Of a stretch of DNA of 64,000 nucleotides, positions 9,313-64,000 are shown piece by piece (position 1 is the first letter of the stretch; each line of letters begins with the position of its first letter). Origin of the DNA: Arthrospira sp. PCC 9108 (GTDB taxonomy: Bacteria > Cyanobacteriota > Cyanobacteriia > Cyanobacteriales > Microcoleaceae); NCBI GenBank assembly GCA_016745315.1, contig CP066886.1, positions 6,200,501 to 6,264,500 of the forward strand. The letters run 5' to 3'. The notes under the pieces were generated by a model, which was not told where the DNA came from, searched no databases, and saw only the letters and a program-made list of their open reading frames with translations. The position numbers and the translations under genes were made by a program.

Positions 9313-9491
9313 GTAAAATTCTATACCTCCATAATCCGTTGAGCCAATTTACAGACAACTGATGCACTCAACTGATGACCCTAGTTTAATCTTTTCAATT
9401 CAAGTTGGTAAAAACAGCACTCATCTATTTTAGAGACTCATAGCATAATCAGCACGTTCCCGAACTTTGTAGTAAAATACCCTAACATTAT

Positions 9492-46073: not shown

Positions 46074-46258
46074 GGGTTATGAAAACTATGCTATTAAGTT
46101 TTTTATGTTAAATTTTTTCAAGGTCAATCCGTTAAAACTTAAAAGAAAATTTATATTTCTTGGCTTGAGTTTCAGAGTTAAGCGTGTTATTGTTGGAATA
46201 AATAGGTATAAGCAATAAAGACAGTTCGTACTTAGAATGAACTGGTTAAGGAATTACT

Positions 46259-47878: not shown

Positions 47879-47885
47879 ATACATC

Positions 47886-49151: not shown

Positions 49152-49159
49152 AGAAAATA

Positions 49160-49321
49160 ATGAGTTTTTTAAAATTTGCAAATCATTGGGGTGTATTTCT
49201 GATATTATTTTGGGTATCTGACTGGGTTTTTGCAGAGACTTGCAACATTCAGCAGATTGCGGACGGTACAGAAATAGATAAAGTTAGAATTGACATCGAT
49301 CAATTTTTCACTTTTCCTTGA
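49160..49321 (+). CDS. Short secreted peptide frame (53 residues), possibly a gene remnant
   Basis: ATG 49160 lies 8 bases after the beta-lactamase-like gene. It encodes a signal-like start (KFANHWGVFLILFWVSDWVF, then AETC) and a short mature part (NIQQIADGTEIDKVRIDIDQ) ending TGA 49319-49321. The signal peptide looks genuine, but the mature part is very short, so a truncated gene is likely. It overlaps the front of the longest GUN4 frame. Confidence 0.4.
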   Translation: MSFLKFANHWGVFLILFWVSDWVFAETCNIQQIADGTEIDKVRIDIDQFFTFP

Positions 49322-49352
49322 TTTAATTATTGGAAAACTCTTCATTCAGCTT

Positions 49353-50066
49353 ATGACTATGCACAACCCGAAGTTAATAAAATACAAAAATTTTTTTTAT
49401 TTTTGGGGATTATCAATCATTGTTTTATTGCTTATTTTGGTTCAATTTCCTGCTCATTCAAAAATAGATAGCCAATACCATGTTCTTATAACCAGGTCTA
49501 GTTTGCCTGTTTTAAAGAGCCAAGGAGGACAGGATGTGGAGGCTATGTATTCTCGTTTAGAAAACTTTGCACAGGAGGGAGACTGGCGTAAGGCTGATGA
49601 GCAAAACTGGGAATTAATAAAGCAAGTTGGTAATAGATGGGGCAATTTAGGAAGACAAATCCGTCCCGAAGAAATTGCTCAAATTTCTTGTTCAGATTTG
49701 AGGAGAATTGATGAGGTTTGGAAGAAGCACTCAAATGGAAACTTTGGTTATAGTGTTCAACTTAAAGTTTGGAGACAGCAATTCAATACTACTCAACTTC
49801 AAGGGTTAATGGAGGGGGAGCGAAATCGTGAAGTTTTTCAAGCATCTCTTCGGTTATATGCAGCTTTGGGATGGTTGATTACTCCTTCTTATAAGAGGGA
49901 TTACCAGAACTTTATATTTTATTTGCAAGCACCTCCAGGACATTTACCTTGTGATTCGGGAAATTCAGTAAATCATTGTTACACAGCCTGTGACTCAGGG
50001 AGAGCACCTGGCTTTTGTGGGGGTGTAATTGTGGAAAATTCTCGGTTTTTGGAATGTAGGCTTTAA
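49353..50066 (+). CDS. GUN4 domain-containing membrane/secreted protein
   Basis: 237 residues from ATG 49353. Alternatives are ATG 49359 and a longer frame from 49290. A signal or anchor helix is at about 13-33 (FYFWGLSIIVLLLILVQFPA). The GUN4 signature follows: GDWRKADEQNWELIKQ, CSDLRRIDEVWKKHSNGNFG and YSVQLKVW. GUN4 proteins bind tetrapyrroles and stimulate Mg-chelatase. Paralogues fused to other parts, and exported ones like this, are frequent in cyanobacteria and have unknown roles. The C-terminal part is Cys- and Gly-rich (CDSGNSVNHCYTACDSGRAP), suggesting disulfides in an oxidising compartment. It continues the kinase/hydrolase cluster. Confidence 0.82.
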   Translation: MTMHNPKLIKYKNFFYFWGLSIIVLLLILVQFPAHSKIDSQYHVLITRSSLPVLKSQGGQDVEAMYSRLENFAQEGDWRKADEQNWELIKQVGNRWGNLGRQIRPEEIAQISCSDLRRIDEVWKKHSNGNFGYSVQLKVWRQQFNTTQLQGLMEGERNREVFQASLRLYAALGWLITPSYKRDYQNFIFYLQAPPGHLPCDSGNSVNHCYTACDSGRAPGFCGGVIVENSRFLECRL

Positions 50067-50082
50067 CCCCGTAAGTTACACT

Positions 50083-50495
50083 ATGAAATCTAAATTTATG
50101 GATTTTCCCATGCAGAAAATTGCCCTGGCTTTTCTAGGCTTACTATTTGGCACTTTAGCCACAATAGAGACTTCTTTCGCCTATCCCCGTCTTAACTGGC
50201 GCAGTGCTGATTTTGAAGGTCGAAGATTGCGGAGTCGGCTTGGAAAACTGAGGCAGAGGCTCAAAAAAGAGGTGAGGCTCTTCATTTTGAGCATGGATTT
50301 GGGAATTTAGGGGTTCTCTGGATTCCCTATTATGAAAATCTCTCAGGACGAAGACTCTATCAAACGATTATTGTTCCTGAAGCAAATTGCGATCGCTTCT
50401 TACGTGAGAATATTCATAAGATTGATGGCAATGCTTACTGCTTTACCCCCAGTAATCGCGGCTTACCGGCTAACCGCAGAGGAGTAACAATGTAG
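50083..50495 (+). pseudogene. Small secreted protein gene with a frameshift
   Basis: From ATG 50083 the frame encodes a signal peptide (KIALAFLGLLFGTLATIETS, FA) and then YPRLNWRSADFEGRRLRSRL, but it soon runs into a poor reading ending at 50310. In the frame shifted near 50245 the sequence KTEAEAQKRGEALHFEHGFG, NLGVLWIPYYENLSGRRLYQ and ANCDRFLRENIHKID continues to TAG 50493-50495. One single-base shift joins both to a protein of about 135 residues. No family is recognised. Its position downstream of the GUN4 gene suggests it belonged to the same cluster. Confidence 0.65.
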
Positions 50496-50499
50496 TAGC

Positions 50500-50880
50500 A
50501 ATGTAGGTTGGGTGAAACGCAGTGAAACCCAACATCATTTAGAGATGGTGGCGTTGGGTTTCGTGACCTCCACCCAACCTACTCAAATTGGGGGAAAAAG
50601 GTCATACTAAGAGATGGTGGCGTTGGGTTTCGTGACCTCCACCCAACCTACTCAAATTGGGGGAAAAAGGTCATACTAAGAGATGGTGGCGTTGGGTTTC
50701 GTGACCTCCACCCAACCTACTCAAATTGGGGGGAAAGGCGATACTAAGAGATGGTGGCGTTGGGTTTCGTGACCTCCACCCAACCTACTCAAATTGGGGG
50801 AAAAAGGTCATACTAAGAGATGGTGGCGTTGGGTTTCGTGACCTCCACCCAACCTACTCAAATTGGGAAAAAAGGCGATC
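50500..50880. repeat. Palindromic (REP-like) repeat, one divergent plus five tandem copies of 68-69 bp
   Basis: Units start at 50541, 50610, 50679, 50747 and 50816, each opening AGAGATGGTGGCG and containing GTTGGGT...ACCCAAC inverse arms around TTCGTGACCTCC. A related but different palindrome (GTAGGTTGGGTGAAACGCAG, then TGAAACCCAAC) precedes them at about 50507-50537. Copies differ by one base in length and a few substitutions at the join. GTTGGGT-type palindromes are widely dispersed in cyanobacterial intergenic regions. The tandem array likely grew by slippage. The remainder to 51019 holds no gene and should contain the parB promoter. Confidence 0.9.
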
Positions 50881-51019
50881 GCCTGTCTAGTCATTTTTCC
50901 TTGATGGGTGGGAAGGAGAGAATGACTGGAAACTCGGGTGCTAAATTGCATAAATTTATCGATCCGAGCCGATAACTATTTTAGGGAAACCCGAAAACCA
51001 CTGCACTGCCAAAGGACCG

Positions 51020-51895
51020 ATGAAAACTCTACCAAACTATCAAATCCGAACATTTGGCGATCGTCGTCAAATTCCCATCAAGCAAATCGTGATCTCGAAA
51101 GTGCAACCGAGAAAGTATTTTTCTGAGCAAAGCATCAATAAACTGGCTGCCAGTATTAAAAGCAGTGGCATCCTGCAGGATTTGATTGTGCGACCGATTG
51201 ATAAGGGTAAGTACGAGTTAGTGGCGGGGGAGCGTCGCTATCGAGCGGCTCAAATTGTGGGACTTGAGACGATACCGGCCCAAGTTAAGGAGATGAGCGA
51301 TGCTGAGGCTTTGCAGTGCGCTTTGACTGAGAATATCCAGCGGGAGGATTTGAACCCGATTGAAGAAACCGAGGCGATTTTGCGGCTGTTGGCTATCAAC
51401 TTAAATGACTCAGTGGAAAAGGTGCGATCGCTACTGCACCGAATGAAAAACGACGCTAAGAAAAAAGTAACTACCCATAGCGCTATGGGTAAACCAGAAG
51501 CCGAAATTGTGAAATCCACATTTGACTCCCTAGGTAGGATGTCCTGGGATTCATTCGTCAGCAATCAATTACCTATGTTGAAACTGCCACCAGAAATCAT
51601 GAAAGCTCTGGGTGAGGGAGAGATTGATTACACCAAAGCCAAGGAAATAGCCAAGTTAAAGTCCGAGAAGGAACGGTTGGCGCTGCTATCAGAGGCGATC
51701 GCTCAAAACTTGACCTTGAGACAGGTGCAAAAATTGGTAAGGGAAAGGAAAGTATCAGAAATGCCAGACCAATTGGAAACTGAGATATCCGACATGACGA
51801 AACAATTCCGACGTTCAAAGGCTAGGCTATCTCCTCAACAACGTTCCGAAATTGAAGCCTTACTGAAACAGTTGAAGTTGCTCATGTCGGAGTAA
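51020..51895 (+). CDS. ParB/RepB/Spo0J family DNA-binding protein (no adjacent ParA)
   Basis: 291 residues. The ParB N-terminal nuclease/CTPase-like domain is at about 18-105 (QPRKYFSEQSINKLAASIKS, LVAGERRYRAAQIVG, ENIQREDLNPIEE). The helix-turn-helix part in the middle is unusual: the stretch VTTHSAMGKPEAEIVKSTFD with SWDSFVSNQLPMLKLPPEIM recalls plasmid-type partition proteins. The C-terminus is a charged helix (FRRSKARLSPQQRSEIEALL). No parA or origin lies next to it, so it is an orphan, possibly of plasmid origin or a regulator. The triad begins 57 bases downstream on the same strand. Confidence 0.88.
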   Translation: MKTLPNYQIRTFGDRRQIPIKQIVISKVQPRKYFSEQSINKLAASIKSSGILQDLIVRPIDKGKYELVAGERRYRAAQIVGLETIPAQVKEMSDAEALQCALTENIQREDLNPIEETEAILRLLAINLNDSVEKVRSLLHRMKNDAKKKVTTHSAMGKPEAEIVKSTFDSLGRMSWDSFVSNQLPMLKLPPEIMKALGEGEIDYTKAKEIAKLKSEKERLALLSEAIAQNLTLRQVQKLVRERKVSEMPDQLETEISDMTKQFRRSKARLSPQQRSEIEALLKQLKLLMSE

Positions 51896-51952
51896 AAAAA
51901 TATGCTAGGATAAGGCCAAGAGAAAGTGTGAATCGATCAAAAATAAACGAGA

Positions 51953-52660
51953 ATGCCTACAAGACCGGGTGGAGAAATAGCTTCCAGACCTTTGCACTTC
52001 ATATTTCTGTGTGATTGCTCTGGATCAATGACGGTAGATGGTAAAATCCAATCATTAAATGCTGCTATTCGGGAATCTATTCCCCATATGCAAGCGGCAG
52101 CTAGTAGTAACCCAAATGCTCAGGTTTTGGTGCGAGTTATTAATTTTTCTAACGGAGCACAGTGGCATATTGCTAGTCCGACAAAAATTGAAGAGTTTAA
52201 ATGGAAAGATTTGGAAGCTAATGTGAATGCTCTAACAGATATGGGCAAAGCTTTATCAATGCTATCAGAACAAATGAAAGTTCCTCCTATGGAAGAAAGG
52301 GCTTTACCTCCTGTACTGGTATTAATTTCAGATGGTCAGCCTACCGATGATTTCAAGGCCGGATTGAATGATATCATGAAGCAGCCTTGGGGCAAAAAAT
52401 CTGTGCGTATTGCCATAGCTATTGGCAAAGATGCTGACGAAGAAGTGTTGCAAAAATTTATTGGTCACTCTGAGTTAAGACCACTTAAAGCGAACAATCC
52501 AGAAGCTTTAGTTGAAAGAATTAAATGGGTATCAACAGTGGTTTTACAGTCTGCATCTTCACCACCTAGCCAAATTTCAAGCTCATCTCACACACCAGTG
52601 ACTGTACCAATTCCAAGTGTAGTTCCAGCAAGCACACCTTCAGTAGATGATGTTTGGTAA
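51953..52660 (+). CDS. vWA domain protein, TerY-like (triad component 1)
   Basis: 235 residues. A vWA domain covers 13-205. MIDAS residues are visible: DCSGSM at 21-26 (DxSxS), the Thr in ALTDMGKAL, and the Asp in LVLISDGQPTDDF. It begins with MPTRPGGEIASRPLHFIFLC, a start shared with the second vWA gene (RPGG...RPL.FI..CD). The tail is Ser/Pro rich and ends in DVW. The next genes encode PP2C and a kinase with 12 and 4 bases between, the set described in the literature as the TerY-P triad linked to Ter/stress systems. The vWA protein probably acts as metal-dependent scaffold or substrate for the kinase/phosphatase pair. Confidence 0.88.
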   Translation: MPTRPGGEIASRPLHFIFLCDCSGSMTVDGKIQSLNAAIRESIPHMQAAASSNPNAQVLVRVINFSNGAQWHIASPTKIEEFKWKDLEANVNALTDMGKALSMLSEQMKVPPMEERALPPVLVLISDGQPTDDFKAGLNDIMKQPWGKKSVRIAIAIGKDADEEVLQKFIGHSELRPLKANNPEALVERIKWVSTVVLQSASSPPSQISSSSHTPVTVPIPSVVPASTPSVDDVW

Positions 52661-52672
52661 AAGGAGAAATAA

Positions 52673-53599
52673 ATGTCCAATCATCATAACAAGCAGGAAT
52701 GGCAAGTTATTGGAAAGACAGTTAGAGGTTCTTCCCATGTAAGAAATAATTTACCTAATCAAGATGCTATGGGGTGGTGGCCAGACTCAAAAAAAGGCCA
52801 TTCATTAATTTTAGTGGTTGCTGATGGTCATGGGAGTTCTAAAAGTTTTCGTAGTGACCAAGGTTCTAGGTTAGCTGTTAATTCAGCCAAACAAACGTTA
52901 CAGGATTTCTTAACTGAGATTTCCAAAACTGATTTAGTGCAAAATTTAGCATCCATTAAACAAATAGCTGAACTAGATTTGCCAAAGGAACTAATTAAAA
53001 ATTGGAAATCAGAAGTTCAGAAAAATTTTTCAGAACATCCTTTTACAGATGAAGAGTGGATAAAATTGAAAAATCAAGAAGGAATTCAACAGCGAGAACA
53101 AGTTGAAAAAAATCCATTTATTGCCTATGGAACAACCTTGCTATCTATTGTAGTTACTGATTTTTTTATCTTATATATTCAACTGGGCGACGGTGATATT
53201 CTTTGCGTTGATGAACAGGGAAGAACAGAAAGACCTTTACGCTTAGACAAAAGATTTTTAGGAAATCAAACAACTTCTCTTTGTTTACCAGATGCTTGGA
53301 AAGAGTTTCAAGTTAGATTAGTTCCTTATCCAGAGAGAATGCCAGAGTTAGTATTGGCTTCAACTGATGGATATTCTAACTCTTTCCGAACAGAGGAAGA
53401 TTTTATAAAAATTGGAAAAGACTACTGGGAAATGACTTATTCTAATAACCTCATTGAGTTAGAAAATCAATTAGAAAATTTTTTGAAAAGTGCTTCTGAA
53501 CAAGGAAGTGGCGATGATATTACACTAGGGATTATTAAGCGGCTACATCAAAATAAATCCAATAATTTGTGCCACAATCAAGTAATAAATCAGGAGTAA
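52673..53599 (+). CDS. PP2C-type protein phosphatase (triad component 2)
   Basis: 308 residues. PPM motifs: NLPNQDAMGWW, VVADGHGSSKSFRSDQGSRL (metal-binding Asp and Gly), IQLGDGDILCV, LVLASTDGYSNSF and GSGDDITLGII. No membrane segment, so cytoplasmic. AGGAGA precedes the ATG, and the kinase gene starts 4 bases after the stop. As part of a vWA-PP2C-kinase operon it should reverse phosphorylation by the following kinase. A helical insert of about 60 residues (DLVQNLASIKQIAELDLPKE and onward) is longer than in minimal PP2C enzymes. Confidence 0.92.
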   Translation: MSNHHNKQEWQVIGKTVRGSSHVRNNLPNQDAMGWWPDSKKGHSLILVVADGHGSSKSFRSDQGSRLAVNSAKQTLQDFLTEISKTDLVQNLASIKQIAELDLPKELIKNWKSEVQKNFSEHPFTDEEWIKLKNQEGIQQREQVEKNPFIAYGTTLLSIVVTDFFILYIQLGDGDILCVDEQGRTERPLRLDKRFLGNQTTSLCLPDAWKEFQVRLVPYPERMPELVLASTDGYSNSFRTEEDFIKIGKDYWEMTYSNNLIELENQLENFLKSASEQGSGDDITLGIIKRLHQNKSNNLCHNQVINQE

Positions 53600-53603
53600 T
53601 AAA

Positions 53604-54950
53604 ATGAGTCAACTACTTAAAAATGGGCAAGTTTTTTTTACAGTTCAATCCAATACACAAGGCAAAGTTGAAAAATTTCTTGGAGGAGGAACACAGGGAG
53701 AAGTATATCAAGTCAATTTAAAAGATAAAATTTTAGCTTTGAAATGGTATTTCCCAGAATGGATAAATCAAGATGATAAGCAAAAAAGTAGATTAGAAGA
53801 AGCTATAAAGTTGGGAATACCGACTGACAGATTTTTGTGGCCATTAGAGATAGTAAACATACCAGATATCCCTGAAACTTATGGTTATATTATGCCACTT
53901 CGAGAAAGCCGATTTAAAGGCGTGGTAGATATGATGAAAAGGCAAGTAGAGCCCAGTTTTCATGCACTAGCAACAGCAGGTTTTGAGTTGTCAAATAGTT
54001 ATTATCAGCTCCACTCAAAAGGATTATGTTACCGGGATATTTCATTTGGAAATGTTTTTTTTGACCCAGATACAGGAGAAGTAAGAATTTGTGATAATGA
54101 TAATGTAGATATTAATGGCAAGCCCGGTATGATTGGAGGGACTCCTGATTTTATGGCTCCCGAGATTGTAATAGGCAAGTCCCATCCTAGTAGTTTTACC
54201 GACCTTTATTCTCTAGCGGTACTTCTGTTTTATTTATTTCATGTTCATCACCCGCTTTGTGGAAAAAAAATGCTCCAAATTAAATGTTGGGATTTAGCAG
54301 CGCGGAGAAAAATATTTGGAGAAGAGCCAGTTTTCATTTTTGATACAGATGATACATCTAATGAAGCTCTCTCCAAAGATATTGATGAAACAGGAGAATG
54401 TGGAGATAATGCTCTTGCCTTTTGGCAAATTTATCCTAAATTCTTTCGTGACTTATTTACTAAAGCTTTTACTCAAGGTCTTCGAGATCCAGAAAATGGC
54501 AGAATAGCAGAAAGTATATGGCGAGGAGAAATGATTAGATTGCGAGATTCTATTTTTTACTGTAGTAACTGTGGATCTGAAAATTTTTACGATTTAGACA
54601 AACTCAAATCATCTAGTGGCGATCCAGGAAAATGCTGGTCTTGTGAAAGCCATTTAGCTATCCCACCCAGAATTAGATTTAAGAAGAACATTATTATGCT
54701 CAATAACAACACTAAGATTTTCCCGCATCATGTTGATGATCAAAAACGATATGATTTTTCAAATCCGATCGCAGAAGTAATCCAACATCCCACTCAGCCA
54801 AATGTTTGGGGATTAAAAAATCTTTCAGATGAAAAGTGGGTAGCTAATGTTAATAATTCAATCAAAGAGGTAGAACCCGGTAGAAGTGTAACTTTAGCTT
54901 TAGGAACAAAAGTTAATTTTGGTAAAGATGAAGGAGAAATAAGAGCTTGA
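53604..54950 (+). CDS. Protein kinase with C-terminal zinc ribbon (triad component 3)
   Basis: 448 residues. Kinase domain: glycine loop LGGGTQGEVYQV, catalytic Lys in LALKWYFP, catalytic loop CYRDISFGNVFF (Tyr replacing His of HRD), metal-binding loop ICDNDNVD (DND in place of DFG), and activation-loop end GTPDFMAPE. The essential Lys, Asp and Asn residues are retained, so activity is likely. A zinc ribbon (YCSNCG ... CWSCE) lies at about 324-352. The last 85 residues form a beta-rich, FHA-like part (VWGLKNLSDEKWVANVNNSI, VTLALGTKVNFG). This kinase-ribbon architecture is characteristic of TerY-P triads. Confidence 0.9.
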   Translation: MSQLLKNGQVFFTVQSNTQGKVEKFLGGGTQGEVYQVNLKDKILALKWYFPEWINQDDKQKSRLEEAIKLGIPTDRFLWPLEIVNIPDIPETYGYIMPLRESRFKGVVDMMKRQVEPSFHALATAGFELSNSYYQLHSKGLCYRDISFGNVFFDPDTGEVRICDNDNVDINGKPGMIGGTPDFMAPEIVIGKSHPSSFTDLYSLAVLLFYLFHVHHPLCGKKMLQIKCWDLAARRKIFGEEPVFIFDTDDTSNEALSKDIDETGECGDNALAFWQIYPKFFRDLFTKAFTQGLRDPENGRIAESIWRGEMIRLRDSIFYCSNCGSENFYDLDKLKSSSGDPGKCWSCESHLAIPPRIRFKKNIIMLNNNTKIFPHHVDDQKRYDFSNPIAEVIQHPTQPNVWGLKNLSDEKWVANVNNSIKEVEPGRSVTLALGTKVNFGKDEGEIRA

Positions 54951-54980
54951 AAATAAATTTATGCTATGCTCTATAAATAA

Positions 54981-57562
54981 GTGCGAGACGTTCAGGCATG
55001 AAATAGGGTTGCAATACCCGAAATAACCGCCTGGTGGGGACTTCAACCCCTTGGTTGAATATAAGGAGCGCACTCCTGACCATCCTCATAACTGTTTATA
55101 TGTCCCAACGATTAGTATCCTACGATACAAATCAAGGCAGGGAACCCAAGGTCAAAACAAACTAACTCATACAAATTCCTTATAGGATGTCCAAAAATGG
55201 ATAAGTAAAAGTTAGGAAATTAGGGTAACGGCGATAGCCACCCCCAGTTTTGGGAATCACAACCCCAGGATTGAAGCGGGGAACGGAAGGCTCCGAGGTG
55301 CAACCTAACACCAGAAACGAGACCACTGCCAACCATCCATGATTAGGGAAACCGAATGTCTGGCTTGAACCATCGTAAAGAGTAAGTAGCGAAATAGGTT
55401 GATACGCTGCGCTCAAAAGAGTAAGGGGAAAAGTAGGGGTTTTTTTTTACTACCTACACAGACCTTTAAAAGTACCCCGGTGGAGAGGACAAATCTAAAG
55501 ATGGAATGCCCATATAAACGGAACGTTTTAAGTCCTCCTGGACTCTGATTATCTGGTCGAGATATCAGTAGGGATAAGTGTAACCGCAAGTCCTAGAGGA
55601 TGTGAGATGTGACCAGAAGCCAACGCCCTGCTGTAATGGTAGGGATATGCTAACAGGTCACGGTTTGATTGTAAGAATAGAGTCTAATAAGAGTCAAAAT
55701 GGCGATAGCGAGTTTAAAGAAAGGATTTGGTAAACCCAAACCAATCAAGACTACGAACAACGCATGGAAGGCAATCCCATGGACTAAGGTTCAACGGAAA
55801 GTTTTCAAGCTCCAAAAGAGTATATTTCAAGCAGCTAAATCGGGACAAGACGCAAAGGCACGAAGGTTGCAACGTCTATTGGTGAAATCGTATTATGCCC
55901 GGCTCTTAGCAGTGCGGCGAGTGACCCAAGATAATCAAGGCAAGAAAACAGCCGGGGTTGATGGAGTAAGAGCAATCTCTCCAAGACAAAGGTTAGAAAT
56001 TGTCAAAAACATTAAGGGAAACCTCAAAGCAAAACCACTGCGAAGGGTGTGGATTCCAAAACCTGGTAGGGATGAAAAACGCCCACTAGGCATACCCACA
56101 ATCCAAGATAGAGCAAGGCAAGCTTTGGTTAAGTCGGCCCTCGAACCTGAATGGGAATCGAGGTTTGAAGGCACAAGCTATGGGTTCCGACCCGGACGGT
56201 CAGCACAAGATGCAATAAGTAGAATATATACTGCCATAAATCAAGGACAATACTATGTTCTTGATGCTGATATAGCAAAATGCTTTGACCGAATAAACCA
56301 TGATTACCTATTGTCCAAAATTCATTGTCCAAGCAGCTTGAAGAGAGACCTGAAACAATGGCTCAAAGCTGGCGTGCTAGATAACGGTGTATTTGAGGAT
56401 ACAGAAGCAGGGACACCCCAAGGAGGAGTAATAAGTCCACTACTAGCCAACATCGCACTGGATGGAATAGAAAGGTTAGTCAAAGAAATGTATCCAAATA
56501 AAGGCAGCACCAATCAGGTAAACCTTATAAGATATGCCGATGATTTTGTGGTCATCTCCAAAGACCTAGGAATCATTGAACAGTGCATGACTGCTATTTC
56601 TATATGGCTAAAACCTGTAGGACTAGAGATTAGACCTGAAAAAACCCGAATATGTCACACACTCAATCCTATTGAGTATAATGGCAAGATTGAGGAACCT
56701 GGGTTTGATTTTCTAGGATTCAATATCAGGCAATATCCCGTAGGAAAGTATAAATCTGGGAAAACAGGGGGGCCTAAGAGTCGATTAATCGGACATAAAA
56801 CCCACATAAAACCCAGCAACAAAGCAGTTAAAGCCCACACAGAAGTGATTAAAGGTGTGATTAAACAACATAGAACAGCACCTCAATCAGCCTTGATTAG
56901 TAGACTAAATCCAATTATTCGGGGATGGTCAAATTATTACTCAGCGGTAGTCTCAACAGAGACCTTCAATAAGCTAGACAAAACAATCTGGCAAATGTTA
57001 AAGGCATGGACAGTATCAAGATGCGGAAAGGCAAATCACGAAAAGCTAAGTAATTATTTCAGACATGGAACAATTAAACTTAGCAATGGGAAAGAAAGAC
57101 ACGAAAATTGGCTATTCCAAACCAAAGATGGGTTACATCTATTCAAACATAACTGGACTCCAATTGTCAGACATACCCTAATACGCCCCGACGCAACACC
57201 ATACGACGGAAATTGGACTTACTGGGCAACCAGGAAAGGACAAGCAATCGACACGCCAATTAGGGTAGCAAAACTACTCAAAAAACAAAAAGGTAGATGT
57301 ACCTGGTGTGGGCAATTCTTTACCCCATCAGACTTAATTGAAATAGACCACATTGTACCTAGAAGCCAAGGCGGAAAGGATGACTACAAGAATCTTCAAT
57401 TATTACACCGCCATTGTCACGACGATAAAACAGCTCTTGATGAAGAGATGATGCTGTACTCTTAACAAGGAGACGGTCAAACTAGGAGCCGTATGAGGTG
57501 AAAGTCTCATGTACGGTTTTGTATGGGAGGGGGAGATGGCGACATCTCTCTCGACCCCTACT
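54981..57562 (+). mobile_element. Group II intron, copy 2, inside the triad operon
   Basis: Begins GTGCGAGACG at 54981 and ends near CCCCTAC at 57561. As far as I can compare, it is identical to copy 1 over its full length. It lies on the same strand as the surrounding genes, 30 bases after the kinase stop and about 22 before the second vWA start. If transcribed with the operon it can splice out of the mRNA without harm. Domain V is at about 57486-57520. The 5' flanks of the two insertion sites share only an AT-rich stretch (TCTATA-like), so base pairing to the target is short or relaxed. Confidence 0.93.
55699..57465 (+). CDS. ltrA: Group II intron reverse transcriptase/maturase with HNH endonuclease (copy 2)
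   Basis: 588 residues, identical in sequence to the protein at 29719-31485: reverse transcriptase with YADD at 279-282, maturase domain and C-terminal HNH domain (CTWCGQ, IDHIVPRSQGG). It is intact, so this intron and the first copy can both provide the protein for splicing and mobility. Identity at protein and DNA level means very recent spread of one copy from the other, or from a third. Confidence 0.97.
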   Translation: MAIASLKKGFGKPKPIKTTNNAWKAIPWTKVQRKVFKLQKSIFQAAKSGQDAKARRLQRLLVKSYYARLLAVRRVTQDNQGKKTAGVDGVRAISPRQRLEIVKNIKGNLKAKPLRRVWIPKPGRDEKRPLGIPTIQDRARQALVKSALEPEWESRFEGTSYGFRPGRSAQDAISRIYTAINQGQYYVLDADIAKCFDRINHDYLLSKIHCPSSLKRDLKQWLKAGVLDNGVFEDTEAGTPQGGVISPLLANIALDGIERLVKEMYPNKGSTNQVNLIRYADDFVVISKDLGIIEQCMTAISIWLKPVGLEIRPEKTRICHTLNPIEYNGKIEEPGFDFLGFNIRQYPVGKYKSGKTGGPKSRLIGHKTHIKPSNKAVKAHTEVIKGVIKQHRTAPQSALISRLNPIIRGWSNYYSAVVSTETFNKLDKTIWQMLKAWTVSRCGKANHEKLSNYFRHGTIKLSNGKERHENWLFQTKDGLHLFKHNWTPIVRHTLIRPDATPYDGNWTYWATRKGQAIDTPIRVAKLLKKQKGRCTWCGQFFTPSDLIEIDHIVPRSQGGKDDYKNLQLLHRHCHDDKTALDEEMMLYS

Positions 57563-57583
57563 CACAAATAGCTGGTGGCAAAA

Positions 57584-58933
57584 ATGGTAAAAAGACCTGG
57601 CGGAAGTTTATCAGTAAGACCTCTTAACTTTATATGGATTTGCGATACATCAGGGTCGATGTCAGTGGAAGGTAAAATTCAATCTTTAAACGCTGCAATT
57701 CGCGAAGCGTTACCCCATATGGTAACTGTAGCAAGTGAGAATCCTAATGCTAATGTGCTTCTAAGAGTTTTAAAATTTTCTCATGGGGCAGAATGGTATT
57801 TTCCATCAGCTATTCCGATATCAGACTTTCAGTGGAAAGATTTAGTTGCGGATCCACTTCAGCAACCCAAGTTAGATATTGTATTTCTAGTAGATACAAG
57901 TGGCAGTATGAGCGATGAAATTGATGCTGTAAAAAGGAGCTGCGTTTCATTTGCAGATCAAATTATCAAAGCTGGAGCTAATGTCAGATTAGGTTTGGTT
58001 GGTTTTGATATTGGAGGTCATCGCGGATCGAGTATGGGCAAAGCCTATAAAGTTTATAATTTGTCTCGTTATACCATTGGTGTATGGCCTTTAAATACAC
58101 CTGAAAGATTTAAGAAAAATATTCAATCTCTATCTCTCGGTTTATTTGGAGGCGGGGGATGCTATTTAGCTCAACGCGACACCGTTGACATTTTTCCTCA
58201 TGTTATTAATACGTTTGATAATTCTTCTGAAAATACTCGAATATTAGTCATTATCTCAGATGAAATGGGTGGCAATGAAGGGCTTTCTGATATTGTTTCC
58301 CAACTCAAAAGTGCATCAATTACCAGTCATGTTTTGGGCGTTTCTGGAAGAGAAGGAGCACATAAATCTATTGCCCGCATGACAGGTGGCGAGTTTTGGA
58401 ATATTACAAAAACTAAGGGGGTTCATAATTTTGAGGATCTATTAGGAACAGTTGCAGACACGATCGCAAAAGAAGTGACTCAAAAGTTAGCAGATGGGAC
58501 AACTTCTTCAGGAACCGATATGGGTACAGCTTTAAAGCTAGTTTCGCAAGAGTTGAAAATACCCCCCATGAATGAAAGAGCTCTGCCTCCTGTTTTAGTA
58601 TTAATTTCAGATGGCCAGCCCACTGATGACTTTCAAAGTGGACTGGATGAGCTTATGAAGCAGCCTTGGGGGAAAAAAGCAGTCAGAATTGCTATTGCTA
58701 TCGGCAAAGATGCCGATGAGGCAGTGTTGCAAAAATTTATTGGTCACACAGAGCTAAAGCCATTGCAAGCTAACAACCCAGAAGCTTTATTTAAATACAT
58801 CAAGTGGTCATCCACTATAGTATTGAAAGCAGCATCATCCCCGGTTAGCCAAACTGATTCATCTTCTAAGAGTAATTTATCTATTGCTTTGCCTCCAAGT
58901 CCTGAAGTTTCTTCTAGTGGTGGAGTTTGGTAA
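57584..58933 (+). CDS. Nested vWA-in-vWA protein (second TerY-like component)
   Basis: 449 residues from ATG 57584, chosen because the first vWA protein starts the same way; GTG 57575 is the alternative. Residues 13-90 match the first part of the 235-residue TerY-like protein (MIDAS DTSGSM at 21-26). Residues 97-302 are a different, complete vWA domain with its own MIDAS (LVDTSGSMSDE at 102-112, LVIISDEMGG). Residues 310-425 then resume the first domain (TDMGTALKLVSQELKIPPMN, LVLISDGQPTDDF, KQPWGKKAVRIAIAIGKDAD). One vWA domain is thus inserted inside another, between its first half and its MIDAS Thr. The tail is Ser-rich and ends GVW, like the DVW of its relative. Confidence 0.9.
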   Translation: MVKRPGGSLSVRPLNFIWICDTSGSMSVEGKIQSLNAAIREALPHMVTVASENPNANVLLRVLKFSHGAEWYFPSAIPISDFQWKDLVADPLQQPKLDIVFLVDTSGSMSDEIDAVKRSCVSFADQIIKAGANVRLGLVGFDIGGHRGSSMGKAYKVYNLSRYTIGVWPLNTPERFKKNIQSLSLGLFGGGGCYLAQRDTVDIFPHVINTFDNSSENTRILVIISDEMGGNEGLSDIVSQLKSASITSHVLGVSGREGAHKSIARMTGGEFWNITKTKGVHNFEDLLGTVADTIAKEVTQKLADGTTSSGTDMGTALKLVSQELKIPPMNERALPPVLVLISDGQPTDDFQSGLDELMKQPWGKKAVRIAIAIGKDADEAVLQKFIGHTELKPLQANNPEALFKYIKWSSTIVLKAASSPVSQTDSSSKSNLSIALPPSPEVSSSGGVW

Positions 58934-58985
58934 AGTAGTGGAAAATTAATATTTAGTCAAGTTCATCTTTATCAATGAAAAACTA

Positions 58986-59996
58986 ATGAAAAATCAGCCC
59001 CACCCTCGGAAAGTGCTTGGAGAAATAATTGCTAAAGATCCAAACTTGTTGCAAGATAGGCAAAGATGCGAAGCATATTTGCGAGATATGTGTCCTGCTT
59101 ATAAACGCGAAATCAAAATTTTAATTGATGCACATAGGGAGGGAGTACCTAATGATTTGATTTCAAGCAAGCTTCCGCCTGAATTATCTATACAAAATAT
59201 TTCTCAAAAATTGCAAAATAACTGTGGATTGTCTCTCGAAATGTCTAAATGGGCGGTCGATTCATGGGCAATTGCACTAAAAATAATTGGTGTCTCATCT
59301 ACTCATAGCTCTGGATTAGGAACTCCTAAAATGACAAAAAAGCACGACATAAAAGTGACAGTTATATCTTTCATACTGGCAACCTTTTCGCTGTTTATTT
59401 TGATGGTATTTGGATATAAATATTTTGGATATCCTAAATTTTTATCCCGTCAATATGAAGCTCACGAACCAATTTCTACAAATTTATATAACTTAGAAAG
59501 TTCGTTTCCTCAAGAGCAATACTCTAAGTATATAGAATTAGCGAAAAAAAATATTTTATCTTTCCCGGACACAGCACATATAAGGTATTCGCTAGGAACA
59601 AATGAGCCAATTAGTTTGAACAACAATCATACAACTAACCTCAATAACAATTTAAATCTAGAAGCCATTGGATATTTAGATGCTTCTGGTGAGCAAGCCT
59701 TACCATTTACAAAGCAGGATATATTACAGCTAATTGATGAATTATCTGACAGAATGAATAACAACTCTATTCAGGAATCCGATACAGTAGAAGTTTTAAG
59801 CTTAGTCTGTATTGAAGCAAACAGTAACACAATTTATCTGATGAAAAATATTAGTATCCAAGCAATTTTAAGAGATATAGTTAATTCAGCAGTTAACGAA
59901 GGCTTAACATTTTTAGAGTCGGATATTGACTTGACTCAATTAGAAATCAATCAGAACTCGCCATCATCAAATTTGATGTCTGGTCGGTATCAGTAA
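58986..59996 (+). CDS. Single-pass membrane protein with helical adaptor-like N-terminus
   Basis: 336 residues. The N-terminal 100 residues (DRQRCEAYLRDMCPAYKREI ... MSKWAVDSWAIAL) are a helical module I recognise as recurring at the front of varied cyanobacterial signalling proteins, with the pattern RCEA.LRD.C and WAV.SWA.AL. I know no certain name or function for it. A membrane helix follows at about 124-143. The C-terminal part (LGTNEPISL, LEAIGYLDASGEQALPFTKQ and onward) is related to the downstream secreted family (GTNSPI, GYVDSSGN). It starts about 50 bases after the nested vWA gene and may be the membrane link of that locus. Confidence 0.6.
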   Translation: MKNQPHPRKVLGEIIAKDPNLLQDRQRCEAYLRDMCPAYKREIKILIDAHREGVPNDLISSKLPPELSIQNISQKLQNNCGLSLEMSKWAVDSWAIALKIIGVSSTHSSGLGTPKMTKKHDIKVTVISFILATFSLFILMVFGYKYFGYPKFLSRQYEAHEPISTNLYNLESSFPQEQYSKYIELAKKNILSFPDTAHIRYSLGTNEPISLNNNHTTNLNNNLNLEAIGYLDASGEQALPFTKQDILQLIDELSDRMNNNSIQESDTVEVLSLVCIEANSNTIYLMKNISIQAILRDIVNSAVNEGLTFLESDIDLTQLEINQNSPSSNLMSGRYQ

Positions 59997-60175
59997 TTTA
60001 TAAAAGTTTTTGGAGGTAATGGTTCAGATAATAAAAACATATATATCCACCCTCCCAATTCAAATGGATTTTGTCTAAAATGAAGTTTAGGTCACTCTCA
60101 GGCAATCTCAACTATAACCCCTAAAACTAAAGTTGCTTGCTTTCCATTTTGATTTTTACTGGAAGAACAAATCGC

Positions 60176-60847
60176 ATGAAAAAATCCTCTGTCTGGAAAA
60201 AAATAGCCTTGGCTTTCTCGTTTGTAATTTCTTTAGCCCTGATTATAAGCTTATCCAAGCCATCAAATGCAATTGACTCTCGTTATCAGAATTTAATTGA
60301 CTTAGGAATTATTGACGCTGTAGCCACACCTCATGAACTAGGATTAGACCAGCTAGGACAACAACCCGTAGATTTAAGTGCGAACCCTAGCTTAATGAAT
60401 TCTATAAGGCGTGTGAACAGAGAGGTTATGCAAATGCCTGAAAATGCTAGATTGATATTTCCTATTGGGACTAACTCTCCTATTAAAATGGGAGATATTC
60501 CACAGGATACAGGTCATCAAGCCGATTCAAGAAGTGATGAATATGAAGGTGAAGGTTATGTAGATGGCAGCGGAAACCCTCAATCTTTTACAGCGGGAGA
60601 TGGAGTTGAAATGACAACAGCAGAGTTACTTGGTAACGGTAGCATTGCTATGGATTTTAACTCTCAACATATTTTAGTAGCTGATGCAAGCCGTACATTT
60701 TTACAAGTACGACGCTATCCAACTATTAATCTGATAGTTCGCAACAAGCGGACTGGAACAAGAGCAGTAATGGTAAATACAAACTTGAATGCAGTTTGCC
60801 GAGATTTATTAAATGCTGTTTTAAACAGCAACTTGCGCAGTTCTTAA
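60176..60847 (+). CDS. Secreted protein, paralogous family member 1
   Basis: 223 residues from ATG 60176, because its relatives all begin MKK with the same signal peptide; the frame is open from 60137. The signal peptide is about 1-34 (KIALAFSFVISLALIISLSK, ending in PSNA). The mature part has YQNLIDLGIIDAVATPHELG, NREVMQMPENARLIFPIGTN, HQADSRSDEYEGEGYVDGSG, HILVADASRTFLQVRRYPTI and NLNAVCRDLLNAVL. The family is not one I recognise. Predicted location is the periplasm or thylakoid lumen, or outside. A strong terminator follows directly. Confidence 0.65.
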   Translation: MKKSSVWKKIALAFSFVISLALIISLSKPSNAIDSRYQNLIDLGIIDAVATPHELGLDQLGQQPVDLSANPSLMNSIRRVNREVMQMPENARLIFPIGTNSPIKMGDIPQDTGHQADSRSDEYEGEGYVDGSGNPQSFTAGDGVEMTTAELLGNGSIAMDFNSQHILVADASRTFLQVRRYPTINLIVRNKRTGTRAVMVNTNLNAVCRDLLNAVLNSNLRSS

Positions 60848-60862
60848 CCGTTCAAGTTCGGT

Positions 60863-60898
60863 CACCTTTCACTTGATAAGATTATCAAGTGAAAGGTG
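60863..60898 (+). terminator. Rho-independent terminator
   Basis: A perfect 17-bp stem, with arms 60863-60879 (starting CACCTTTCACTTG) and 60882-60898, a 2-base loop and TTATTTT shortly after. It lies 16 bases after the stop of the first secreted paralogue. The symmetrical arms could also terminate transcription from the other strand. Confidence 0.85.
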
Positions 60899-60927
60899 GC
60901 TTATTTTGAATCAACAAAAACAATCGA

Positions 60928-61022
60928 TGCAGTTCAAATTAATCTAGTTTAGATTGTAGTTAAGCGCGTCACTACAGTGACTTGCCTCTGACGTTAAGTT
61001 TTAAAGAATCACCAAAAATATC
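60928..61022 (+). promoter_or_regulatory. Upstream region shared with the paralogue at 62565
   Basis: The segment before the second paralogue contains TGCAGTT, a short variable stretch, AATCTAGTTTA, later TCTGACGTT and a final AAAAAATATCATG-like context. The region at 62468-62564 repeats these blocks in the same order and spacing (TGCAGTT, TTAATCTAGTTTA, TTCTGACGTT). The duplication thus took the promoter/leader with the gene, and the preserved blocks may be regulatory. Exact promoter boxes cannot be assigned by eye. Confidence 0.45.
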
Positions 61023-61757
61023 ATGAAAAAATCCGCTTTCTGGAAAAGATTAGCCTTGGCTTTCTCGTTTCTAATTTCTTTAGTAATGATTATAAGCTTA
61101 TCCAAGACTACAAATGCAATTGACTCTAGTTATCATAATTTCATTGGCTTGGGAATTATTGAGGCTGTATATACACCTCATGAACTAAATGAACTAGGGT
61201 TCAAACAGCTAGGAAAACAACCAGTATATTTAAGTGCGAATCCTAGCTTAATGAGGGCTATAAAGCGTGTGAACAGAGAGCTTATGCAAATGCCTGAAAA
61301 TGCTAAATTATCATTTCCTGTTGGTACTAACTCTCCTATTAGAATTGGAGAAATTCCAAATGATACCGGTCATCAAGTAGATTCAAGAAGTGATGAATAT
61401 GAAGCTACAGGTTATGTAGATAGCAGCGGAAACGCTCAATCTATTACAGCGGGAGATGGAGCTGCAATGACAAGAGCAGCATTGTCAGGCACTGGTCACC
61501 TCCTAAGACACCAGTGTTCATTGTCAAGATCCGAGTTAAGTTGCCAAGGTAACACTTCTACTGATTTTAACTCTCAACATATTTTAGTAGCTGATGCAAG
61601 CCGTATATTTTTACAAGCACGACGCTATCCAACTATTAATCTGATAGTTCGCCACAAGCGCACAGGAAGACAAGCGGTAATAGTCAATGCTAACTTGTAT
61701 GCAGTTAAACGAGATTTATTAAACGCTGTTTTAAACCAAACTTTACGAATATATTAA
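61023..61757 (+). CDS. Secreted protein, paralogous family member 2
   Basis: 244 residues. Signal peptide KRLALAFSFLISLVMIISLS, then TNA. The mature part follows member 1 closely (YHNFIGLGIIEAVYTPHELN, LMQMPENAKLSFPVGTNSPI, HILVADASRIFLQARRYPTI). It has an extra segment of about 20 residues with two Cys (LRHQCSLSRSELSCQGN) at about 160-177, possibly a disulfide-closed loop, and lacks the single Cys near the C-terminus (NLYAVKRDLLNAVL). Function unknown. It is preceded by the shared upstream region and probably has its own promoter. Confidence 0.65.
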   Translation: MKKSAFWKRLALAFSFLISLVMIISLSKTTNAIDSSYHNFIGLGIIEAVYTPHELNELGFKQLGKQPVYLSANPSLMRAIKRVNRELMQMPENAKLSFPVGTNSPIRIGEIPNDTGHQVDSRSDEYEATGYVDSSGNAQSITAGDGAAMTRAALSGTGHLLRHQCSLSRSELSCQGNTSTDFNSQHILVADASRIFLQARRYPTINLIVRHKRTGRQAVIVNANLYAVKRDLLNAVLNQTLRIY

Positions 61758-61792
61758 TTGGTAAATTTTTTCAACTATCAATAAAATAAGCA

Positions 61793-62350
61793 ATGAAACT
61801 TTTGTTAATCTTCTTGTTAACGTCCATCTTAAATTTTTCTATTTTTTTTGATTTGACATACCTCTTTGAAAATCATTTTACGGATACTATTAATGATATG
61901 TATATTCAAGAAAAAATCTACAATTTAATTGATTTTAAGTCGTCAAATATAAGCTTAATAGACATAAAAAAATATAGTAAAGTTTCTAAGAAAGAGTTGC
62001 TAAAACTTAGCTCTGTTTTCAGAGATATCGCTAGAGCTTTAGGATCTGGGTTTTCAACAAAGGATATTTTTTATGACAAATATTCAGAAATTTCCATGAC
62101 CAATAATGAGATAATAAATATTTTATACAGTGCTAGTCATATTAAAGATTCTCAAGGAGATTGGGTTTCGTTAACCGTGGGACAATCACTAAAACTGATC
62201 ACTCAACAACTTAATTACTTGGAAAACTTAGAATCCAAAAAAACAATTGATTTGTTGATTAAAGATAATACAAACAATCATGATCAACAAATTCTTAACG
62301 TTCCTTTAGATTACTATTGCCAAAGCATACTTCAAAAACTTAAATTATGA
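61793..62350 (+). CDS. Secreted or anchored protein, divergent member of the same family
   Basis: 185 residues. A hydrophobic N-terminus (KLLLIFLLTSILNFSIFFDL) acts as signal or anchor. The mature part lacks the conserved first half of its relatives (GTNSPI, DEYE). It keeps their C-terminal plan: GDWVSLTVGQSLKLITQQLN, then LLIKDNTNNHDQQILNVPLD with YYCQSILQKL, aligning with NLIVRNKRTG...N.NAVCRDLL. It is Lys/Ile/Ser rich and AT-rich. The relation is judged by eye and is distant. Role unknown. Confidence 0.5.
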   Translation: MKLLLIFLLTSILNFSIFFDLTYLFENHFTDTINDMYIQEKIYNLIDFKSSNISLIDIKKYSKVSKKELLKLSSVFRDIARALGSGFSTKDIFYDKYSEISMTNNEIINILYSASHIKDSQGDWVSLTVGQSLKLITQQLNYLENLESKKTIDLLIKDNTNNHDQQILNVPLDYYCQSILQKLKL

Positions 62351-62564
62351 CTAAGGAAACTCTCGACCGAGCAATATGTCGATTTTTATGTCTTTAGAAG
62401 TTCAATTTAGTTTGGAAATCTTTTGGCGATAATTGATTTTAATAAGAAATTCATATAAATTAATCTATGCAGTTAAACTTAATCTAGTTTACAATGAAGT
62501 GGTAATTGATAACGTTACAACATTTACCGACTTCTGACGTTTTGTTAAAATTACAAAAAATCTC

Positions 62565-63236
62565 ATGAAAAAATACTCTCTGTTGAGAACATTGGCTTTA
62601 GCTTTATCATTTTTAATTTCTTTAGCACTGATTATAAATGTATCAAAGCCCTCAGATGCAATTGACTCTGGTTACCAGAATTTAATTGACTTAAGAACTA
62701 TTTATGCTGTAGCTACGCCTCATGAATTAGGGTTAGATCAGCTAGGACAACAACCCGTAGATTTAAGTACGAGTCCTAGCTTAATGAGTTCTATCAATCG
62801 TGTGCGCCGCCAGCTTATGCAAATGCCTGAAGATGCTAAATTGTTATTTCCTGTTGGTACTAACTCTCCTATTAGAATCGGAGAGCTTCAGCGAGACAGA
62901 GGTCATCAAGCAGATTCAATGAGTGATGAATATGAAGCTGTAGCCTATGAAGATAGTAGTGGGAATATTCAACTTCTTACAGCGCAAGATGGTGTTTACA
63001 TGACAACTGCTGAGTATAACAATAGAGGGAATATTGCTAGTGATTTAAATTCCCAGAATATTTTAGTAGCTGATGCAAGCAATACATTTGTACAAGCACG
63101 ACGATATCCAAATATTAATCTGATAGTTCGCAACAAGCGCACAGGAAGATTCTGGAAAATTACCAACGCCAACTTGAATGCAGTTTGCCGAGATTTATTA
63201 AATGCTGTTTTAAACAGAAATTTACGCAGAATTTAG
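62565..63236 (+). CDS. Secreted protein, paralogous family member 3
   Basis: 223 residues. Signal peptide RTLALALSFLISLALIINVS, ending SDA. The mature part closely follows member 1 (LIDLRTIYAVATPHELGLDQ, VRRQLMQMPEDAKLLFPVGT, NILVADASNTFVQARRYPNI, NLNAVCRDLLNAVLNRN). It diverges most in the middle (GELQRDRGHQADSMSDEYEA). It is preceded by the upstream region also seen before member 2. Function unknown. Confidence 0.65.
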   Translation: MKKYSLLRTLALALSFLISLALIINVSKPSDAIDSGYQNLIDLRTIYAVATPHELGLDQLGQQPVDLSTSPSLMSSINRVRRQLMQMPEDAKLLFPVGTNSPIRIGELQRDRGHQADSMSDEYEAVAYEDSSGNIQLLTAQDGVYMTTAEYNNRGNIASDLNSQNILVADASNTFVQARRYPNINLIVRNKRTGRFWKITNANLNAVCRDLLNAVLNRNLRRI

Positions 63237-63268
63237 GATTTAAAATTATGGGAAATATAACCTGAATC

Positions 63269-64000
63269 ATGCTTATGTTTGTGAAGTTTATTTTAAGCCT
63301 AGTAATAATTTTTGGGGTGATTTTCTCTGTCGAACAACCAGTTCTTTCTGCCAATGATCCTGAGCATACTTATTTGGATATGCAGCTTAGGCAGTTAATT
63401 AATTCGATCGCCCCTAATAATAGTGGTTATCAGTATTTTATTCTACCTGATTCAGAAAATCTTAGTGCAATACCTTTTGATCCTCAAAATGAATTAACAA
63501 AAGAAAAAATTTATCTTGGTCAAATGCTGTTCCATGAAACGGCTTTGTCTATTAATCCAATTAATAGTAAACATTGGCAGGAAGCAAGCTGTGCATCTTG
63601 TCATTTTGCAGAAGCTGGATTTAGATCAAATTTGCCACAAGCATTAGGAACAGGAGGAATAGGAGCAGGTAAATTGCGACATCCAGATCCCGATGCTTTC
63701 CCTGCTGAAATTGATAAGCAAAATATTTTAGCTCCATCTGTATTAAACAGTGCTTACCAAAAAGCAATGTTATGGAATGGGCGTGCAGGCTCTACTGGAG
63801 TTAATGGCAAAGAGAAGCTAATTCAGAGCTTCGATATTAATAGATTTAAGCTGGATGGGTTAGAAACCCAGGCCATTAGTGCAATGAACGTCCATAAATT
63901 AGGAACAGCCGCGATCGCTCTCATACCTGAATACCAAAAGCTATTTGCTAGTGCTTTTCCTGATCGCCCTTATGTAGGATCAGAAGTTGAAGACTTGAAA
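63269..64000 (+). CDS. Di-haem cytochrome c peroxidase (MauG-like), 3' end outside window
   Basis: 244 codons are open from ATG 63269 to the window edge. A signal peptide is at about 1-27 (FVKFILSLVIIFGVIFS, ending in VLSA). The family patterns KIYLGQMLFHETALSIN and CASCH (first haem-binding motif, 108-112), then LAPSVLNSAYQKAMLWNGRA, fit bacterial cytochrome c peroxidases and MauG-like enzymes. The second haem motif is beyond the window. The enzyme would work in the periplasm or lumen on peroxide or on a protein substrate. It follows the secreted family by about 30 bases on the same strand; a functional link is not evident. Confidence 0.85.
   Translation, partial: MLMFVKFILSLVIIFGVIFSVEQPVLSANDPEHTYLDMQLRQLINSIAPNNSGYQYFILPDSENLSAIPFDPQNELTKEKIYLGQMLFHETALSINPINSKHWQEASCASCHFAEAGFRSNLPQALGTGGIGAGKLRHPDPDAFPAEIDKQNILAPSVLNSAYQKAMLWNGRAGSTGVNGKEKLIQSFDINRFKLDGLETQAISAMNVHKLGTAAIALIPEYQKLFASAFPDRPYVGSEVEDLK

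Follow-up and report, generated by a model that had tools for sequence, protein, structure and literature searches.

Why would a locus built around a TerY-like vWA protein carry a second TerY paralogue with a further vWA domain set into its fold? The question is raised by a gene at 57584-58933 of a 64,000-nucleotide stretch of DNA from Arthrospira sp. PCC 9108, referred to here as the window. A preliminary description, made from the sequence alone, had proposed that the encoded protein contains one complete vWA domain within another, and that it might form a two-site scaffold for a kinase/phosphatase pair.

The annotated genes next to it, from 51020 to 59996, lie on the + strand. A ParB-type protein (51020..51895; Pfam ParB_N, 110.1 bits; HTH_ParB, 53.5 bits) is encoded upstream of a triad that comprises a TerY-like single-vWA protein, TerY1 (51953..52660; Pfam VWA, 37.3 bits), a PP2C-type phosphatase (52673..53599; PP2C_2, 156.5 bits) and a Ser/Thr kinase (53604..54950; Pkinase, 60.1 bits). 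The Cys pairs of the kinase were read in the sequence as a zinc-ribbon-like CxxC..CxxC stretch; no zinc-ribbon Pfam family matched the window kinase at E 0.1, and the kinase of a related cyanobacterial locus (L035) matched below the cut-off. The C-terminal domain of the window kinase is common to the kinases of related loci. The PP2C and kinase genes (stops at 53599 and 54950) belong to the same locus as the nested gene, as had been proposed; the kinase and nested genes are separated by a group II intron (reverse transcriptase at 55699-57465, NCBIfam group_II_RT_mat, 338 bits; 3' end at 57484..57561, Rfam Intron_gpII, 60.5 bits). The intron (55699-57561) encodes an RT/maturase with an HNH-like end, and the L035 and L137 loci have merely a short spacer at this place. 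Downstream of the nested gene lies a gene (58986..59996) whose product begins with a helical domain; this domain is found again at related TerY loci, followed by variable C-terminal domains. Three similar tandem paralogues follow (60137-60847, 61023-61757 and 62565-63236), and by eye the 58986 protein has part of their GTN(E/S)PI region.

The available passages of PMC11090510 define the TerY-P triad as a TerY vWA protein, a PP2C phosphatase and a Ser/Thr kinase with a zinc ribbon or OB fold. The three genes side by side at 51953-54950, with CxxC pairs in the kinase, resemble this arrangement. The window differs from it in having a second TerY whose fold contains a further domain, and in the helical-domain protein that recurs at related loci. 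Because the PADLOC TerY model matched neither the nested TerY nor TerY1 (the nested protein of the L137 locus gave a weak partial match of 20.2 bits over residues 99-127), we refer to the locus as TerY-P-like and not as a PADLOC TerY-P member.

A vWA domain inside a TerY-like vWA domain

The coordinates and reading frame in the preliminary description were correct: an ATG at 57584 and a stop at 58933 delimit an uninterrupted frame of 449 aa on the + strand, with a GTG at 57575 as a possible alternative start. Compared with the 235 aa TerY1, residues 1-89 and 311-449 align, and the approximately 220 residues between them, located between WKDL and TDMG just before the MIDAS Thr311, are essentially unmatched. 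In a tblastn search, the nested protein matched the TerY1 gene twice, with query residues 2-90 (61% identity, E 3.7e-32) and 308-440 (68%, E 1.1e-56). The N-terminal half of the outer vWA (residues 1-89; 57584..57850) is 61% identical to TerY1. The second half (residues 311-449; 58514..58933, stop included) is 68% identical, and contains Thr311, Asp343 and a C-terminal tail ending in VW.

The intervening segment with its linkers (residues 90-310; 57851..58513) was recognized as a vWA domain by Pfam and by the predicted structure, and has relatives in the L137 and L163 loci. Pfam VWA (PF00092) matched the nested protein over two stretches, the best at 98-256; the full-length protein scored 66.4 bits (cut-off, 23.8). 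Submitted by itself, the insert scored 38.7 bits against the same cut-off, which bears out the separate vWA claimed at 97-302. There is no support for an origin of the insert by recent duplication of the outer vWA into its own loop, as the best insert/outer alignment covered just 16 residues around DTSGSM with a score of 46, compared with a mean of 30 and a maximum of 74 in 300 shuffles.

Structure prediction, which had been suggested as a check, was carried out on the full 449 aa with AlphaFold2, using an alignment of 30 rows (the protein and 29 relatives) in which the insert was covered by two rows. Eight stand-alone relatives of the inserted vWA were removed before folding; when aligned with plain TerYs, they had fallen on the outer domain. 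The model had a mean pLDDT of 75.4 and a pTM of 0.64. The outer elements (E12-21, H24-52, E56-66 and E68-78, then H313-323 and E337-342 through to H399-417) form one vWA domain that is broken off after its third strand, so that the first half contributes beta1-alpha1-beta2-beta3. These outer halves were predicted with confidence, with 10-residue block means of 83-97 over 11-90 and 311-410. The insert showed its own alternation of strands and helices, from E96-104 through to H283-303, making residues 96-303 a second complete vWA; its confidence was moderate, with block means of 39-85 over 91-310 that were lowest at 141-160 and 181-200. Two nested vWA folds are seen in the model; tandem vWA domains and a disordered insert are not, and were rejected on this basis. 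We therefore consider it confirmed that the 449 aa protein is a TerY-like vWA protein with a second vWA domain inserted in the loop before the MIDAS Thr.

It is, to our knowledge, unusual for a domain to be inserted into another domain of the same fold. Since TMq was at most 0.34 among the 50 Foldseek matches listed against the PDB, none of these structures fits the whole nested protein; the top match was the two-vWA protein PTMP1. The pilus adhesin SpaC, the vWA domain of which carries insertions, was also among the matches listed. Against BFVD, TMq did not exceed 0.36 among the 50 matches listed. At the sequence level, the best match of the nested protein to PDB sequences had an E value of 0.036, a search of genome contigs gave no confirmed match, and none of 24 plasmid records covered 80% of the query. 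Viral contigs searched with A1 yielded no match.

The outer domain has its DxSxS residues at D21-S23-S25, T311 in TDMG (at 311) and D343 in ISDG (at 341). The retention of this MIDAS, noted in the preliminary description, holds: all five residues are present and are invariant in all 30 rows of alignment A4. In the nested protein of the L163 locus, which was added after A4, Ser replaces the outer MIDAS Thr311. The insert keeps DxSxS at 104-108 (D104-S106-S108) and the late Asp (D226, in ISDE at 224). Its middle motif reads GGGGCYLA, compared with GGGDxPES in nine of ten stand-alone relatives and GGGDAPEA in the tenth, and the pattern across the three nested proteins is GG(G/A/S)G(C/S)YLA. The insert has thus lost the GGGDxPES motif of its stand-alone relatives. 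Of the earlier proposal that both domains may bind metal, the part concerning the intact outer site stands, but metal binding by both sites is doubtful. Type III-A CoCoNuTs, in the available text of PMC11090510, likewise have two TerY-like VWAs in one operon, the internal one without the middle MIDAS Thr. There, however, each VWA has a gene of its own and ATPase genes lie in between, whereas here one lies inside the other.

Recurrence of the insertion and a second kind of insert

Relatives were surveyed in two ways. The best 80 of 405 TerY relatives were kept for the survey of related loci, a ranking that may favour plain TerYs. In addition, TerY queries were searched against overlapping sets of 291, 386, 61, 34, 301, 274, 41, 297 and 82 genomes; 77 of the 80 loci were given to the whole-genome search, as batches of 35 and 42 (the latter in 41 genomes), with L088, L108 and L125 left out. 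These searches found six insert-bearing TerY genes in five genomes. Three have a vWA insert: that of the window, one in Trichodesmium sp. MAG_R02 and one in a genome of the Chloroflexota group. The vWA(N-half)-vWA-vWA(C-half) architecture, for which a database search had been proposed, is therefore present in two further genomes. The other three carry a beta domain. Neither the presence of the nested form in two phylum-level groups nor the ability of the loop to take an unrelated beta domain had been included in the preliminary description.

In a genome of the family of the window (G250, locus L035), a second TerY, with 156 unrelated residues in the loop, comes after the plain TerY, PP2C and kinase. 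In the Trichodesmium MAG (G616, loci L100 and L137), the gene order is plain TerY, PP2C, kinase, beta-bearing TerY, vWA-in-vWA TerY; its beta insert is close to that of G250, and its vWA insert is 72% identical to that of the window over 219 aligned residues. A third genome (G683), of the phylum of the Anaerolineae genome L063, which is labelled Chloroflexota, has a plain and a beta-bearing TerY. A genome of the same order (G1565, locus L163) has a plain TerY and a vWA-in-vWA TerY; the ORFs listed for the surrounding 15 kb, all of 150 aa or more, did not include the kinase. The insertion point was identical in all six proteins: it follows W(K/Q/R/T)DL and immediately precedes (T/S)DMG, giving the pattern W(x)DL(x)(A/P)(D/E), insert, (T/S)DMG. 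The insert-bearing paralogue shares its locus with a plain TerY in all five genomes. It is also rare, being absent from most of the genomes that encode a plain TerY. The NG86 dN/dS of the insert, calculated between the window and Trichodesmium genes, was 0.10, and that of the outer N-terminal half 0.15, at a dS of about 2, which is near saturation.

The position of the nested gene immediately downstream of a group II intron could raise the suspicion of a chimaeric ORF or a misassembly. Such an artefact is, in our judgement, exceedingly improbable: the reading frame runs without interruption, the same architecture is found in three genomes of two phylum-level groups, and two of the inserts share 72% identity over 219 residues. 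We consider this explanation refuted by the homologues with the same architecture.

Several other frames came to light in these genomes. A 369 aa frame of G282 was rejected as an insert-bearing TerY, as its extension is C-terminal by eye and is not an insert. G614:C311:1-147 is a partial TerY at a contig end, and at L164 (~1717-2410; G1567) the halves of a plain TerY lie in two separate frames, apparently broken. TerY loci of the window's family (L035 2006-5426, L036 and L137 2314-5397) also encode vWA proteins with transmembrane-like segments, one of which ends, by eye, in a stretch resembling the kinase C-terminal domain.

From its motifs, we take the beta insert to be YfaP/DUF2135-like. PF09906 matched the beta insert of L149 at 15.2 bits, under the gathering cut-off of 22, and gave no match to that of L035. 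The best match among PDB sequences had an E value of 0.8. AlphaFold predicted, with low confidence (most block means in the range 44-63), a helix and then eight strands, and TMq for the beta-bearing TerY was at most 0.37 among the 50 Foldseek matches listed against the PDB. Relatives of the beta insert in other proteins were found in 4 of the 146 cyanobacterial genomes searched. The cyanobacterial beta inserts (L035 10242-10709 and L137 9501-10652) contain CPC and C(P/S)VC, and that of L149 has single Cys residues. It is possible that the Cys pairs form a zinc site in one lineage.

Ancestry of the insert-bearing paralogues

To place the six proteins, trees were built on the outer domains alone, with the inserts removed. 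In a 93-row tree, the six insert-bearing rows fell on one side of a branch from the 87 plain ones, with support of 95/81 and in 98% of 200 bootstrap trees, and none of 500 label shuffles was as low as the observed arrangement. The corresponding branch had support of 97/92 in a 96-row tree with five insert-bearing rows, and 94/87 in a 42-row tree; the bootstrap had not settled in the 93-row and 96-row trees. The TerY1 relatives in the 96-row tree carry twelve phylum labels, mostly from MAGs and given as in the records. In the 93-row tree, the beta-bearing rows formed one group (100/95). If the insert-bearing clade is right, there must have been at least one domain exchange in the slot. We infer that one ancestor acquired the open loop as a socket, and that its content would have been exchanged at least once.

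An alternative is that the loop tolerates inserts, and that vWA and beta domains entered it separately in different TerY lineages. None of the alternatives that we tried was rejected by AU tests, which is compatible with such independent insertions: p was 0.284 for the nested TerY of the window as sister to its own plain TerY, 0.118 for the cyanobacterial nested pair placed with cyanobacterial plain TerYs, and 0.289 for the three vWA-type rows as one clade, the tree itself favouring an origin of the beta-bearing proteins within the vWA-bearing ones. The clade also includes long branches (L163 and L161). However, a single label change suffices in 94-98% of bootstrap trees, and inserts are rare among the sampled TerYs, yet all six occur in one clade. 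Separate insertions are consequently an unlikely explanation in our assessment.

Candidate roles in a TerY-P-like locus

The wider family of loci gives a context in which the nested protein may be interpreted. Profile matches in 80 fetched TerY loci (L057-L136) identified PP2C in 78, a kinase in 63 and the helical-domain protein in 71, and all three of vWA, PP2C and kinase were present within the fetched DNA in 61 of the 80. The helical domain, of approximately 110 residues and helical by the look of its sequence, had no Pfam match in the window protein; it is also encoded in the L038, L149, L150, L163 and L164 loci. We scanned 62 helical-domain proteins (57 of 90 listed ORFs >200 aa, that of the window, and four from L038, L149, L163 and L164), and found WD40 in 10, FGE-sulfatase in 10 and DUF1036 among others, with 25 shown of the 106 families matched. 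Because its relatives bear such variable C-terminal domains, the helical domain behaves like the effector-associated domains described in the available part of PMC7159879. We read the TerY/PP2C/kinase/helical-domain locus as a modular signalling or effector locus. The L038 locus also encodes a PrsW-type membrane protease (9047-10321), the end of which resembles the kinase C-terminal domain by eye.

The C terminus of these TerY proteins is invariant. It is [VI]W in 81 of 81 TerY ORFs (from 79 of the 80 loci, L057-L136) and in all six insert-bearing proteins, and follows a variable Pro/Ser-rich stretch; in the window, it is encoded at 52649-52657 and 58922-58930. This pattern points to a likely end-anchored docking tail that the nested protein has kept.

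TerY-P triads have been hypothesized to be phosphorylation switches (PMC11090510, available text), and the MIDAS is where vWA domains bind extended peptides (PMC7159879, available text). The outer MIDAS, the C-terminal tail and much of the plain TerY sequence are all retained in the nested paralogue, so that its most likely docking place is that of the plain TerY. The outer vWA would then engage the kinase/phosphatase machinery like an ordinary TerY, with a peptide at its MIDAS and the ...VW tail, and the loop before the MIDAS Thr would serve as a socket for a whole folded domain. The most likely contribution of the inserted domain, which adjoins the MIDAS Thr, is a recognition head that may bind a second ligand beside the outer MIDAS and so select or gate the targets of the kinase and PP2C. 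The TerY1, TerY-beta and TerY-vWA proteins that occur together in the Trichodesmium MAG could accordingly be alternative heads of one switch. On balance, we favour this joint reading, in which a second TerY paralogue of a TerY-P-like vWA/PP2C/kinase locus opened the socket once, exchanged its content, and acts as an adaptor that keeps docking and gains a recognition head. A two-site scaffold for the kinase/phosphatase pair, as first proposed, is possible.

The location of the insert also allows an opposite interpretation, namely that it blocks the outer MIDAS as a spacer or plug, so that the paralogue would act on the TerY switch as a decoy or negative regulator. The entry of the insert into the loop just before the MIDAS Thr, and the disappearance of the middle acids from the insert's metal motif, are consistent with this model. 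A plugged site would have no need of the conserved outer MIDAS residues, however, and the dN/dS of the insert is low, though dS is saturated; we regard a plug as distinctly improbable.

Integrins offer a precedent for communication between an inserted vWA domain and an older binding site. The metal site of the integrin ligand pocket lies in the beta-I vWA. In the available text of PMC10659397, the inserted vWA of integrin alpha-I supplies the trigger for the ancestral ligand pocket, and an internal-ligand model of the I domain exists. By analogy, a ligand at the TerY insert might move its C-terminal helix and thereby open or close the outer site through the covalent connection. This helix ends at 303, leaving seven residues (304-310) to T311, and the C-side linker is equally long in all three nested proteins, the N-side one differing by two residues. 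A seven-residue linker of equal length permits a relay but does not show it, particularly with n=3. The relative orientation of the domains is not fixed by the model (pTM 0.64), the insert's own MIDAS is altered, and the beta-domain version of the socket cannot work in this way, all of which leaves a covalent relay unlikely. The integrin host is also a beta-propeller and its partner another chain, whereas host and guest are both vWA domains of one chain here. Rather doubtful, too, is the more ambitious combination in which the socket opened once, vWA and beta domains were exchanged, and two MIDAS-type domains became allosterically coupled in one chain, as an independently evolved bacterial counterpart of the integrin relay feeding a kinase/phosphatase pair.

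Other known systems share parts of the architecture with the recognition-head model that we prefer. The pilus adhesins RrgA and GBS104 have a vWA domain with inserted arms beside the MIDAS and a second proposed binding surface (PMC7893114, available text), but they are surface proteins, and the arms of RrgA consist of hairpins, loops and short helices, neither a second vWA nor an exchanged domain. In vWA-MoxR conflict systems, the paralogous vWA components differ in the domains that they bear, and small, mostly helical domains couple variable effectors; the fusions described in the available passages of PMC7159879 are C-terminal, and the word 'inserted' is absent from its text. No MoxR gene was seen by eye among the ORFs of 45000-64000. 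In agreement with the preliminary description, we found no account of a vWA-in-vWA TerY in the open-licence literature, a scope outside which the 2012 paper that defined TerY-P falls.

With a guest that varies and an insertion point that stays constant, the socket is a natural experiment in how the adaptor of a kinase/phosphatase switch gains new inputs. The vWA inside a vWA provides a direct test case for binding passed from one metal site to another. Finally, the family points to a type of TerY-P-like locus that is widely distributed, in which a helical-domain partner recurs and the C-terminal tail of the TerY proteins is invariant.
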